Source: Steroidobacteraceae bacterium
GTDB taxonomy: Bacteria > Pseudomonadota > Gammaproteobacteria > Steroidobacterales > Steroidobacteraceae
Direction of reading: 5' to 3'
DNA length: 64,000 nt
NCBI GenBank assembly: GCA_019634895.1
Contig: JAHCAM010000005.1
Location: forward strand, 62,001 to 126,000
The first letter of the stretch is position 1. Every line of letters starts with the position of its first letter. Positions 22,189-26,647 of this stretch are shown here, piece by piece. Under the pieces are notes generated by a model. It did no database searches. It saw only the letters and a list, made by a program, of their open reading frames with translations, and was not told the origin of the DNA. Both the position numbers and the translations under genes were made by a program.

Positions 22189-22476
22189 ATGAGCCGCATC
22201 CACCTGCGCCGCGCGCACGACCTGACGCCGAAGGCCGCGCGCACGCGCGTGAACCGCATGGCGGACGCGCTCGGCAGGAAGTTCGACGCGGAATGCAGCT
22301 GGGACGGCGACGTGCTCTCCATCGAGCACCCCAACGTCAACGGCACCGTGACCGTGGGCAGGAACGAGATCGTGGTCGAGGCGACGCTCGGATTCCTGCT
22401 GGCGATGTTCCGCGACCGCGTGGACGAGGAGCTGGTGCGCATCCTCGACGCGGAGTTTCCTGAAGCCGGCGCCTAA
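22189..22476 (+). CDS. Polyhydroxyalkanoic acid system family protein
   Basis: A 95-residue protein of the PHA granule-region family (PF09650 type). Features are RRAHDLTPKAARTRVNRMAD at the start, then GNGT-like strands around VNGTVTVGRNEIVVEATLG, and LLAMFRDRVDEEL at the end. Members sit in or near PHA synthesis loci, but their role is not settled. No PHA synthase is in this window. No ribosome binding site precedes the ATG; the TATAAT at 22177 suggests leaderless expression. Its end overlaps the convergent repeat protein by four bases. Confidence 0.8.
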   Translation: MSRIHLRRAHDLTPKAARTRVNRMADALGRKFDAECSWDGDVLSIEHPNVNGTVTVGRNEIVVEATLGFLLAMFRDRVDEELVRILDAEFPEAGA

Positions 22477-23411
22477 TCCGCCGGCCGCACCAGCAGCGGC
22501 CAGTTCAGCGTGGATTCCACGTCGCGCAGGTTGCGCCGCGCCGGATGGAACACCAGGCTCCTGAGGATGCAGGCGCCCGCCTCGTCGAGCGAGGCGTTGC
22601 CGCTCGATTCCAGCAGTTCCGCCTTGCGCACGCGGCCGGTCTTCGCGACCGTGATGCGGTACTGGATCGTGACCATGGCGGTCTGGCCCCCGGGATAGCA
22701 CTTGCGGTAGGCGGCGAGGATCGCGGCCTCGTCCGAGCGCGGGCGCGGCGGCTCGACCTCGGCGTCGTAGTGCCGGTTGTAGCTGAGGTTGAACTCGAGC
22801 GGCACCATCACCCAGGACTCGACCAGCGTCGTGCGCAGCCGCGCCGGGTAGAACTCCAGGCGCTCGGCCACGCACTGGGTCGCTTCGGTCATCCACGGCA
22901 GCATGCCGGCCGGGAGCTGGTATTCCTTGATCCTGCCGTCGGTGCCGACGCGGCCGATCAGGTTGACGCTTCCCTCCTTCAGGTTTTCGAGCGTCCACGG
23001 CGCGTGGCAGTAATCCACGACGCGGCGCAGGTCGCCGCGGAGCTCCGGCAGGCTGGGGAACGTCACCGGCAGCACCAGCTTCTCCGGCACGGGCTGTCCG
23101 TCCCGCAGCGCCGGCTGGTACTTCAGGCGCACGCCGACGCACTGTGCGGCGGCAGCCACGCGATCGTGCGTTCCGGGCGGCGCAGTCACGGCACTGGCGC
23201 GGCCGTCGGCGCCGACGACGACCGTGACCTCCACCGACCCGGTCAGCGGACCGCTGCGGGCGTGGACCTGGTAGCAATGAACCGCGGCATCGACGACGTC
23301 GCCCAGCGGTTGCGGCAGCCGCTCGCCGTCCTGCGCGTGCGCCATCGCGGCGAGCAAGGCGATGGCGGGCAACAGCGGGCGTGCGGCACCGGGCAGGCGC
23401 ATGAGGATCAC
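22473..23411 (-). CDS. Secreted protein with three TonB-C-like repeats (repeat family, member 1)
   Basis: A 312-residue exported protein of unknown function. A signal peptide (LLPAIALLAAMAHAQ) is followed by three repeats of about 95 residues, resembling the TonB C-terminal fold. Each has a first cysteine (VHCYQ, DYCHAP, RKCYPGG), a beta segment with GADGRA- or GTDGRI-like turns, and a second cysteine in a helix-strand motif (CVGVRLKYQP, CVAERLEFYP, CILRSLVFHP). These six are the only cysteines in the mature part. It lacks the N-terminal membrane anchor and proline linker of true TonB. GTG start at 23411; ATG at 23402 is an alternative. Distal member of the four-gene array. Confidence 0.75.
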   Translation of the reverse strand: MILMRLPGAARPLLPAIALLAAMAHAQDGERLPQPLGDVVDAAVHCYQVHARSGPLTGSVEVTVVVGADGRASAVTAPPGTHDRVAAAAQCVGVRLKYQPALRDGQPVPEKLVLPVTFPSLPELRGDLRRVVDYCHAPWTLENLKEGSVNLIGRVGTDGRIKEYQLPAGMLPWMTEATQCVAERLEFYPARLRTTLVESWVMVPLEFNLSYNRHYDAEVEPPRPRSDEAAILAAYRKCYPGGQTAMVTIQYRITVAKTGRVRKAELLESSGNASLDEAGACILRSLVFHPARRNLRDVESTLNWPLLVRPAD

Positions 23412-23418
23412 TCTGCCT

Positions 23419-24111
23419 CTAGGGCGCGCCTTGCGGCGGGCTCAGCTCGATCGGCATGGATACCGTGGATCTCACGGCCTGGCTGCCGCGCAGCAGCGGC
23501 TTGAACTGCAGCTTCTTCACGATGCACGCACCGGCCTTGTCGAGGCGGGGATCGCCGCCGGACTTCAGCAGCCTGACGTTGCGCGCGCGGCCATCCACGC
23601 CGACCGTAAACCGGAACACGGGCGTCTGGGTCGCAACCGTACTGGCCGGGTAGCAGTCATGATGCGCCCGGCGGATAGCCTCAGCGTTGGACCGGATCTC
23701 CGGCGAATGGAACTCCGGCGCCTTGCCCGAGGCGCGCACGATGCCCAGCGTGACGGGCATCGTCGTCTCGACGGCGGCGACCACGCCGTCAACCATTCCG
23801 GGCCGGAAACGCGAGTTCGCGAGCACGCAGCGGGCGGCCTGCTGCTGCCATGGCTCGGTGCCCAGCGCAAACTGCGGATCCGTTGCCGTGCCATCCGGCT
23901 GCACCACGAAGCGCACGACCACGACGCCTTCGCGACCCAGGCTCGCGGCGCCGTGCGGGTAGCAGTGCGACAGATCGGCCGAGTTCGGCTGCAGCATGGG
24001 CGCCACGATTCTCCGAGGTGCCCCGTCCTCGGACGCGAGAACGGGTCCCGCCGCGCTTGCGAATCCCGCCACCACAAGCATGCCGGGGCCCCAACACCGC
24101 CGACCCGCCAT
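23419..24111 (-). CDS. Secreted protein with two TonB-C-like repeats (member 2)
   Basis: A 230-residue exported protein. Signal peptide MLVVAGFASAAGPVLAS, then two repeats with the cysteine pairs SHCYPHG/CVLANSRFRP and HDCYPAS/CIVKKLQFKP. The ATG at 24111 has GGAG eight bases upstream. An earlier in-frame ATG at 24138 would fall before the transcript start predicted from the extended -10 box at 24140-24148. It ends eight bases before member 1. Function unknown; mature repeats share motifs with members 1, 3 and 4. Confidence 0.75.
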   Translation of the reverse strand: MAGRRCWGPGMLVVAGFASAAGPVLASEDGAPRRIVAPMLQPNSADLSHCYPHGAASLGREGVVVVRFVVQPDGTATDPQFALGTEPWQQQAARCVLANSRFRPGMVDGVVAAVETTMPVTLGIVRASGKAPEFHSPEIRSNAEAIRRAHHDCYPASTVATQTPVFRFTVGVDGRARNVRLLKSGGDPRLDKAGACIVKKLQFKPLLRGSQAVRSTVSMPIELSPPQGAP

Positions 24112-24139
24112 GGTCGATCTCCAATGCCGTGACACCATT

Positions 24140-24148
24140 ACGCTAGCA
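24140..24148 (-). promoter_or_regulatory. Extended -10 element upstream of repeat protein 2
   Basis: On the minus strand TGCTAGCGT matches the extended -10 pattern TGnTAnnnT. Transcription would start near 24132, leaving a leader of about 20 bases with GGAG before the ATG at 24111. It suggests members 2 and 1 can be transcribed separately from members 4 and 3. Confidence 0.35.
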
Positions 24149-24250
24149 CGAGAGCGTGGCAGGGCGAGGTACCGGGACTTCGCCCAATCTGGCCGGAACG
24201 TGTGGTTTCGGCCATATGCGCCGGTCGCCGTGGCTGGCCGGGAGTCCCGA

Positions 24251-24976
24251 TCAGCCGCCGGGCTGCGGCAGGATGATCACGCCCCAGTGCACGTGCAGGC
24301 GCGCGTGCCTGCCCTCGAGCATCAGCGGCTCGAATCGCAGCCGCTCGATGATGCAGTGGCCCAGGCGATTGGCGTCGCGCGGTGTCCCGGAATCGAGCAC
24401 TCGCACGTTGCGCGCGCGGCCATCTTCATCCACGGAGAACTGGTATACGACGCGCTGCTCGGTGGTGATCTCGCCGGTCACGCACTGCCGATAGGCCGCG
24501 CCGAATTCCTCCGGCGACGAGCGAAGTCGTGCGGGCATCGATTGCCGCGGATTCAGCAGGTCCTGACCCACTTCGGTCCATGACTTCAGCGGGATCTCCG
24601 CAATCGCCTGCACGGCAACCCCGTCCTGAACGCCCGGCTCGAAGCGCATGGTCTTGATGACGCAGGTTGCCCAGCGCTGCACACGGTTCTTCGCCCAGGG
24701 CTTCGCCTTCATCGTCGCCAGCAACGGAACATCGACGTTCAGGACCCGCCCGTCGGCGCCGATCGTCGCGACCGCGACGACTTCGAGATCCCCGATCTGT
24801 TGTCCGTCGATATTCGGTTCCTTCAGCTTCATGTAGCAGGGACGTGTGTCGCCAATCTCGACGGCGCGCGGCCCCGCGCTTTCCTGCGCCCATGCAGGCT
24901 GTGGGATGGCGGTCAACGCCACAAGGCCGTACAACATATCGCGCACCACGGTCAGCATCCGGCCATGCTTGAGCAC
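24251..24976 (-). CDS. Secreted protein with two TonB-C-like repeats (member 3)
   Basis: A 241-residue exported protein. The start is GTG at 24976, with AGAGG nine bases upstream; the frame further upstream lies inside member 4. Signal peptide MLYGLVALTAIPQPAWAQ. Two repeats follow, with cysteine pairs RPCYMKL/CVIKTMRFEP and RQCVTGE/CIIERLRFEP. The first repeat has an insertion before its GADGRVLNV turn. 31 bases separate it from member 4, and 112 GC-rich bases follow before member 2 begins its own promoter region. Function unknown. Confidence 0.75.
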   Translation of the reverse strand: MLKHGRMLTVVRDMLYGLVALTAIPQPAWAQESAGPRAVEIGDTRPCYMKLKEPNIDGQQIGDLEVVAVATIGADGRVLNVDVPLLATMKAKPWAKNRVQRWATCVIKTMRFEPGVQDGVAVQAIAEIPLKSWTEVGQDLLNPRQSMPARLRSSPEEFGAAYRQCVTGEITTEQRVVYQFSVDEDGRARNVRVLDSGTPRDANRLGHCIIERLRFEPLMLEGRHARLHVHWGVIILPQPGG

Positions 24977-25007
24977 AGTTCGCACCTCTCGCCGGCCGCA
25001 TGGCGGT

Positions 25008-25973
25008 TCATGGCTGCGGAGGTATGGTGACCGTCCACCACACCATCTTGACGTCAACCCGCTGGCCCCGGTAAACGGCCGGCTCGTACCGTAACCAGCG
25101 GGTAAGGCACCGGGCAACGTCATCCACCTTGCGCGAACCGCTGCTGACGGCGACCTGCGCACCCACCACACGTCCTTTCTTGCTCACGGTGAGCGACAGC
25201 TTGACGTCGCCGCCTTCCTTCATCTTTGCGGACCGGCAGTGCCCCATCGCCTTCGCCAGATCCGGTTCACCAGTCAGCAGCCTTGCCGGCTGCAACGTTG
25301 CATTCAGGTCGTCCTCGGGCCGGGCGAACCTGATGGGCAGCGTCACCCAGGACGCTTCCGCCCGGCCGTCGCGGGTCGCGGGATCGAGCTGCAGGCTGCC
25401 GACGATGCAACGAACGGCGGCCCGCATCTCCTCGGTCAGGTTCGGCGGCATCTCGATCTGTTCCACCGCGCCGGTCGCTGCGACCATGACATAGACACGC
25501 ACATCCATGCGTTCGATCGACCGCGGGTAGCAGCGCTCCTGCACGCGCTCGTCCGGAAGGCCGCGCAGGCGCGGCGGCACCTGCCCGCGGCTGCGATAGG
25601 CTCGCACCGCCCAATTGATTTCTGCTGCCAGCCGTTCCGCCTCGGCGATCGCGGCGTCGTTCAGGTCCGCCCTGATGGACTCCAGAGATTCGCGGTCTTC
25701 CGGCCTGGCTTCCAGCTGGCGCGACAGTTCCCGTGCCAAGCAGGTCGAATAGGCGGTCACACTCGCATCGAACTCCCTAAAGGCATCCTGTGCCTGCCGC
25801 ATCTCGGTTTCCGTTGCCTTGCTTCCGTCCGGAATCGCCAGCTGCGTGCTGGGCATTTTGCAGGCGAGTCCGAACGCATTGCGCGCCTCGGCGGTATCGG
25901 AAGCGCTGCCGGCCTCGGCCGACACTGCCGGCGAAGTCACCAGGGTCCACAGCAGCAATGCGGCTGCGTTCAT
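25008..25973 (-). CDS. Secreted protein with helical region and two TonB-C-like repeats (member 4)
   Basis: A 321-residue exported protein, the first of the array. Signal peptide MNAAALLLWTLVTSPAVSA. About 120 residues of mostly helical sequence with two extra cysteines (LACKM, STCLARE) come before the two repeats, whose pairs are ERCYPRS/CIVGSLQLDP and GHCRSAK/CLTRWLRYEP. The helical segment is absent from the other three members. ATG at 25973; the frame upstream is a shadow of alkA. It lies 41 bases after alkA and may be read from the trxA-rho-alkA transcript. Function unknown. Confidence 0.75.
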   Translation of the reverse strand: MNAAALLLWTLVTSPAVSAEAGSASDTAEARNAFGLACKMPSTQLAIPDGSKATETEMRQAQDAFREFDASVTAYSTCLARELSRQLEARPEDRESLESIRADLNDAAIAEAERLAAEINWAVRAYRSRGQVPPRLRGLPDERVQERCYPRSIERMDVRVYVMVAATGAVEQIEMPPNLTEEMRAAVRCIVGSLQLDPATRDGRAEASWVTLPIRFARPEDDLNATLQPARLLTGEPDLAKAMGHCRSAKMKEGGDVKLSLTVSKKGRVVGAQVAVSSGSRKVDDVARCLTRWLRYEPAVYRGQRVDVKMVWWTVTIPPQP

Positions 25974-26014: not shown

Positions 26015-26647
26015 TCAGGATCTCGCGCGTCGCTCCTCTCTGGCCAAATCCACCGCCCGCCAAAGGTACCACGACGCGGTGGTCCGGTATGGCGCCCAGA
26101 CCTCGCCGTGGCGGGCGAGCGCCTTCGGCTTCGGCAGCGTGCGCTTGCCATAGGCGATGCGATAGCCCATGCGGATGCCGTAATCGTCCACCGGCAGCAC
26201 GTCCGGCCGTCCCAGCGTGAACATCAGGAACATCTCCACCGTCCAGCGCCCGACGCCGCGCGCCTCGACGAGACGTTCGATGATCGCCTCGTTGTCCAGG
26301 CGGGCGAGCGCGCGCCGCGGCGGGATGGTGCCGTCGAGCGTCTTCGCCGCGATGTCCTTGAGCGACGCCGCCTTGGCGCGCGAGAAGCCGCAACCGCGCA
26401 ACTGCTCGTCGGGCGTCGCCGCCAGCAGTTCCGGCGGCGGGCAGCCGTCGAGCCCGTACAGCGCGTAGAAACGGCCGAGGATCGTCTGCGCGGCCTTGCC
26501 GGTGAGCTGCTGGTGCGCGACGGCGCGCACCAGGGCTTCGTACGGACTGCGCCCGCGGACCGGGGCGATGGCGCAGGGTTCGGCGCGGCGGATCAGCTGC
26601 GCCATCACCGGGTCGACCCGGCGCAGGTGGCGCAGCGCCTCCGTCAT
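26015..26647 (-). CDS. alkA: DNA-3-methyladenine glycosylase II (AlkA-type, HhH-GPD)
   Basis: A 210-residue base-excision glycosylase for alkylated purines. The helix-hairpin-helix is in [15 protein letters not shown], and the catalytic aspartate follows in [11 protein letters not shown]. The N-terminal AlkA-specific domain of the Escherichia coli protein is missing, so it is the short form common in proteobacteria. The ATG overlaps the rho stop (ATGA), implying translational coupling to rho. Confidence 0.88.

Follow-up and report, generated by a model that had tools for sequence, protein, structure and literature searches.

The window, a 64,000-nucleotide stretch from a Steroidobacteraceae bacterium (a gammaproteobacterium known from metagenomes), carries a minus-strand array of four genes, G1–G4, whose products are built from tandem TonB C-terminal domains. 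The proteins bear export signals but no membrane anchor, each domain contains a conserved cysteine pair, and the array probably arose from the tail of the clade's own cysteine-paired TonB. Gene calls and TonB_C matches agree with the initial annotation of a four-gene array of exported proteins with 3+2+2+2 repeats, nine in total. The features are as follows.

22189–22476, plus strand: PHA_gran_rgn (PF09650), left border; next to purD also in relatives
22473–23402, minus strand: G1, 309 residues, predicted exported, three TonB_C repeats (TonB_C 67.4 bits)
23411, minus strand: alternative GTG start of G1
23043–23303, minus strand: repeat G1a, cysteines 43 and 88
22779–23039, minus strand: repeat G1b, cysteines 132 and 177
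22476–22742, minus strand: repeat G1c, cysteines 235 and 278
23419–24138, minus strand: G2, 239 residues, predicted exported, two TonB_C repeats (TonB_C 70.1 bits)
23740–23991, minus strand: repeat G2a, cysteines 59 and 104
23434–23697, minus strand: repeat G2b, cysteines 162 and 205
24251–24958, minus strand: G3, 235 residues, predicted exported, two TonB_C repeats (TonB_C 29.3 bits)
24575–24865, minus strand: repeat G3a, cysteines 41 and 99, separated by an insert
24263–24523, minus strand: repeat G3b, cysteines 159 and 202
25008–25973, minus strand: G4, 321 residues, predicted exported, helical N-terminal region and two TonB_C repeats (TonB_C 47.1 bits)
25581–25886, minus strand: N-terminal helical region of G4 (residues about 30–131), with its own cysteine pair (38 and 78)
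25317–25562, minus strand: repeat G4a, cysteines 148 and 189
25014–25277, minus strand: repeat G4b, cysteines 246 and 289
26015–26647, minus strand: HhH-GPD glycosylase (alkA-like), right border; next to rho also in relatives

The repeats are no chance pattern, because all four proteins exceed the curated Pfam cut-off for TonB_C (PF03544; 24.6 bits, with scores taken over whole proteins). Three of the four also exceed the cut-off of TIGR01352. Promoter or terminator consensus sequences were not found in the array region, a result of little weight in a GC-rich host.

Pfam scores of G1–G4 and AlphaFold models of G2 and G4 support the TonB C-terminal fold that had been proposed from the repeat consensus. 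The G2 model, derived from 16 sequences (pLDDT 77.9, pTM 0.48), is differentiated into two domains that follow the helix–strand–strand–helix–strand order of TonB tails. Its second repeat superimposes on the TonB C-terminal domain of a transferrin receptor complex (VIA-align; Z 9.2, rmsd 2.5, 82 residues aligned), and the model matches Escherichia coli TonB with a Z of 8.0 (VIA-align). An AF2 model of G4, derived from four window paralogues (pLDDT 83.0), places two long helices in the N-terminal part, bearing out the extra helical region noted earlier for this member, and then two TonB-tail domains; the last repeat matches a TonB C-terminal domain with Z 9.9 (rmsd 2.2, 87 residues aligned), these fold comparisons covering mainly the second repeats and the first repeats barely. 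First repeats carry LPxGxxPW where TonB has SSGFxRLD, and their divergence is strong enough that some of them may have lost TonB-box binding.

Both cysteines are present in all nine repeats, as first described. The accompanying motif needed correction: the version given for the second cysteine held one x too many and should read C-[IVL]-x3-[LMS]-x-[FYL]-x-P, and the first cysteine, said to lie often in CYP, does so in four of the nine repeats (CY in six). The mature proteins have no cysteines other than those of the repeat pairs and of the N-terminal pair of G4, the sole odd one being C15 in the G2 signal peptide. In the G2 model, the first helix ends with one cysteine of the pair, and the second helix contains the other. 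Co-occurrence and invariance agree with the proposal that the two act together—cysteines make up four of the ten invariant columns of the tandem alignment, and 75 domain rows (overlapping fragments and close relatives included) divide into 37 with both cysteines, 37 with neither, one with the second only and none with the first only. In the exceptional row, a cysteine precedes YYP by a few residues. Since fragments overlap and relatives are close, a Fisher value on these rows overstates their independence. Read from the alignment, this co-occurrence is the pattern of a putative disulfide, of which one per repeat domain would probably form in the periplasm; the host genome encodes a DsbA.

The pair does not mark the array specifically, as had been supposed, given that the organism's own ordinary TonBs contain it. 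TonB1 and TonB2 (L068 3563-6256, contig C87 of the same genome) form a tandem pair ahead of exbB and exbD, each with an N-terminal membrane span that includes the motor-box His, followed by a proline-rich stretch. Their cysteines occupy the array positions (NACYPAAARR...MDCVIRRLEF and NACYPSASRR...AECVIRKLPF). With these two TonBs as queries, 84,980 named genomes yielded related TonBs from other genomes, with both cysteines present in 12 of 12; two of these are labelled Steroidobacteraceae and most others come from Gammaproteobacteria metagenome bins. We read the pair as a clade-wide feature of this TonB, small but testable in its own right. Because the anchored TonBs carry a cysteine pair at the same positions, the array most likely descends from the clade's own Cys-paired TonB tail.

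An HMM built from the tandem region was run on 396 genomes of the order and 369 across the class, the two sets overlapping slightly. After the array proteins, its best matches in the order are TonBs of the same genus and of genus g24 (55–71 bits), those of other genera scoring at most 53 bits; the remaining class-wide matches score at most 47 bits. In the order, the HMM finds array-type proteins in the same genus only; other searches added one further Steroidobacteraceae genus (genome G030). No relatives were found among 72,556 plasmids, a search of named genomes with G2 as a single protein returned none, and the tandem alignment contains no stretch with enough conservation to serve as a query there. 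A domain tree (85 columns, long branches) groups most last repeats together (97/92) and the Cys-TonBs together (96/97), while the first repeats scatter on very long branches. Last repeats stay near TonB in sequence by both HMM score and tree. Arrays and Cys-TonBs as a single group give a p-AU of 0.463, a grouping that the tree neither rejects nor positively places. Separately, TonBs of genus g7 in the same family (L127, L128, L129, L131 and L027) have their cysteines in the first strand (EGTC) and the second helix (DKAC) instead, as if a disulfide had shifted within the fold.

The sequences of G1–G4 accord with the reported absence of a membrane anchor and proline-rich linker. Each N-terminus consists of a short hydrophobic stretch with an AxA-type signal-peptidase-like site; none of the four N-termini has a lipobox, and no further clear membrane span is present beyond the hydrophobic stretch. 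Proline content is 5.9–8.8%, without a proline-rich linker, and the repeats begin shortly after the signal peptide or, in G4, after the helical region. The proteins had been termed secreted; the N-terminal signals argue for export, not for release from the cell, and since the products would be exported in a Gram-negative cell they are most likely periplasmic. TonB carries its motor-binding (SHLS) box in the anchor (PMC12204202). The His of this box is missing from the hydrophobic stretch of G2–G4, whereas both anchored TonBs have it, and the His of G1 sits at the likely cleavage site. Neighbours of the array are PHA_gran_rgn, purD, alkA, rho and trxA, the exbB–exbD pair lying on another contig, and no transporter gene adjoins the array within the stretch read.

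The TonB C-terminal fold is used for pairing with TonB boxes through strand addition, and the host genome encodes 25 TonB-plug domains. In E. coli, overproduction of a periplasmic TonB domain reportedly inhibits uptake, according to work of the early 2000s. Proteins without an anchor or motor box cannot pass force, so the simplest reading is that the array proteins bind TonB partners passively and without energy, serving as decoys or a scaffold; we favour this tentatively, at somewhat less than an even chance. Under such a scheme, a TonB C-terminal domain of the clade would have lost its anchor and linker and repeated internally, the repeated-domain gene would then have duplicated at one chromosomal site, and in G4 the tandem domains would have been fused with a small, unrelated exported protein. 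The individual domains, each probably held by one periplasm-made disulfide, would pair with outer-membrane partners but transmit no force, occupying or cross-bridging the TonB boxes of TonB-dependent transporters and thereby damping or organizing their use. The binding target, the periplasmic location and the decoy or scaffold role are what we infer for the array, and the fact that close relatives live without it counts against TonB-partner binding. We think it unlikely that the proteins go further and form a class of anchor-free, multivalent TonB tails dedicated to regulating uptake by competing with or cross-linking the cell's own TonB–transporter contacts. A soluble TonB fragment binds FhuA (PMC11658791); if the array binds TonB boxes without force, it would be a natural counterpart of such laboratory fragments, and TonB-dependent uptake would be regulated by means other than gene expression.

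Because the N-terminal region of G4 shares homology with an exported protein that also occurs on its own, at about 110–120 residues, we interpret G4 as a fusion of this widespread, undescribed protein with tandem TonB domains. The standalone form is present in 338 of the 396 genomes of the order, possesses its own conserved cysteine pair and follows the pattern C-x-Y-P...IPDG-x-T-A..EM...AY-x-x-CL...NAAVD...FNEQLR. It has no match in Pfam, NCBIfam or PDB sequences and merits its own family entry. The copy in the same genome (L187 5141-5500, contig C79) neighbours what look like molybdenum-cofactor genes; elsewhere the protein sometimes occurs in several tandem copies (for example, L191). The helical part of G4 has designed and spectrin-like bundles as its fold matches (Z up to 9.6), and these were dismissed as meaningless.

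The long helices of the G4 model would also suit a structural role, in which the tandem domains bind peptidoglycan or envelope proteins as a spacer or scaffold without regulating transport, the G4 hairpin extending their reach. A TonB-like protein with a role in the cell wall rather than transport exists in SjdR of Anabaena (PMC8262864), and the first repeats, without TonB-typical residues, nonetheless share LPxG..PW in several orthologs, as for a different partner. However, the last repeats remain near TonB sequence and G1–G4 match no peptidoglycan-binding family in Pfam; we regard a structural role as doubtful.

The linkage to trxA–rho–alkA that was initially remarked upon is positional only. 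Close relatives hold rho–alkA–PHA_gran_rgn–purD without the array, making the association incidental and ruling out a functional tie. In genomes G002, G029, G047, G100 and G114, the site between alkA and PHA_gran_rgn is empty (about 20–50 bases). The same-genus genome G005 has one three-repeat G1 ortholog there (51% identical), G004 has a homocysteine methyltransferase (L104 5027-5890), G001 has a cytochrome c (L067 2826-3752) and G4-type genes, on two contig ends, and G030, from the other genus, has a G4-type gene adjoining purD–PHA_gran_rgn. With relatives either empty or holding array-type genes or, in other species of the genus, unrelated single genes, this is a small variable insertion site and the array its variable cargo. 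Orthologs of G1 and G4 in different species of the genus rule out a recent tandem expansion in one strain; at least two types are therefore older than the species, with later losses.

The patchy distribution could instead mean that the genes are decaying paralogues, functionless at present. Several close relatives have no array genes, the first repeats sit on very long branches, and the G4 ortholog of G001 (L067 about 4210, contig C66) is frameshifted near an A run at a contig end, through either true decay or assembly error. Against this, the four window genes are all intact, with coding base composition (GC3 0.79–0.92), both cysteines are retained in every repeat read, and G1 is constrained, judging by a dN/dS of about 0.45 versus its G005 ortholog (dN 0.46, dS 1.02; NG86). 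Decay is thus improbable in our view. The changing cargo might also reflect pressure from TonB-dependent phages or bacteriocins, the soluble domains blocking TonB boxes as an envelope shield; a site that is empty, array-bearing or filled with unrelated genes among close relatives would fit, as would the fast divergence of array genes (about 51% identity within the genus). Yet the site showed no sign of a defence gene, an integrase or a mobile element, its other cargo (homocysteine methyltransferase and cytochrome c) looks metabolic, and we give a shield very little credence.

A literature search found no described system of secreted tandem TonB-C-like domains, in line with the initial annotation; several known families are nevertheless comparable to the array. 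Members of PF03544 and TIGR01352 usually cap an anchored energizer, whereas the array proteins have no anchor. Domain III of TolA, an anchored force transducer (PMC12204202), has a fold related to the G2 model (Z 5.4–6.5) but matches more weakly than TonB (Z up to 9.9), and Pfam reports no TolA family for the array proteins. A distant likeness exists to NF033768 (myxo_SS_tail), the C-terminal domain of AgmX/PglI (GltJ/GltG), whose name in the NCBI model hints at a TonB-like tail with paired cysteines. Scores for this family are 28 (G1), 24.9 (G2), 29.5 (G3) and 17.2 bits (G4), all under the 40-bit cut-off, ruling out membership. The one match above the cut-off in the same genome (L012, contig C89, 65.3 bits) is unlike the array, being of anchored type with a hydrophobic span, a proline-rich stretch and one cysteine only, at a different place in the domain. 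L012 is also an AgmX/PglI-tail protein outside the myxobacteria, the family's namesake group.

Two proteins from the same order (G016 L033 and G216 L126) resemble the array in having an export signal, two TonB_C domains and no anchor, but they are cysteine-free, without the conserved pair, and distant in sequence. The clade's own TonB resembles the array proteins in its C-terminal fold, its helix-CYP start and its same-position cysteine pair. It differs in having one domain, an anchor with the motor-box His, a proline-rich linker and exbB–exbD neighbours; the array proteins combine two or three domains with a cleavable export signal and lack the anchor, motor box, linker and exbB–exbD. Each part of the array is known; what is new is the variant that they form together, anchor-free tandem domains encoded by a gene array with a probable origin in a Cys-paired TonB.
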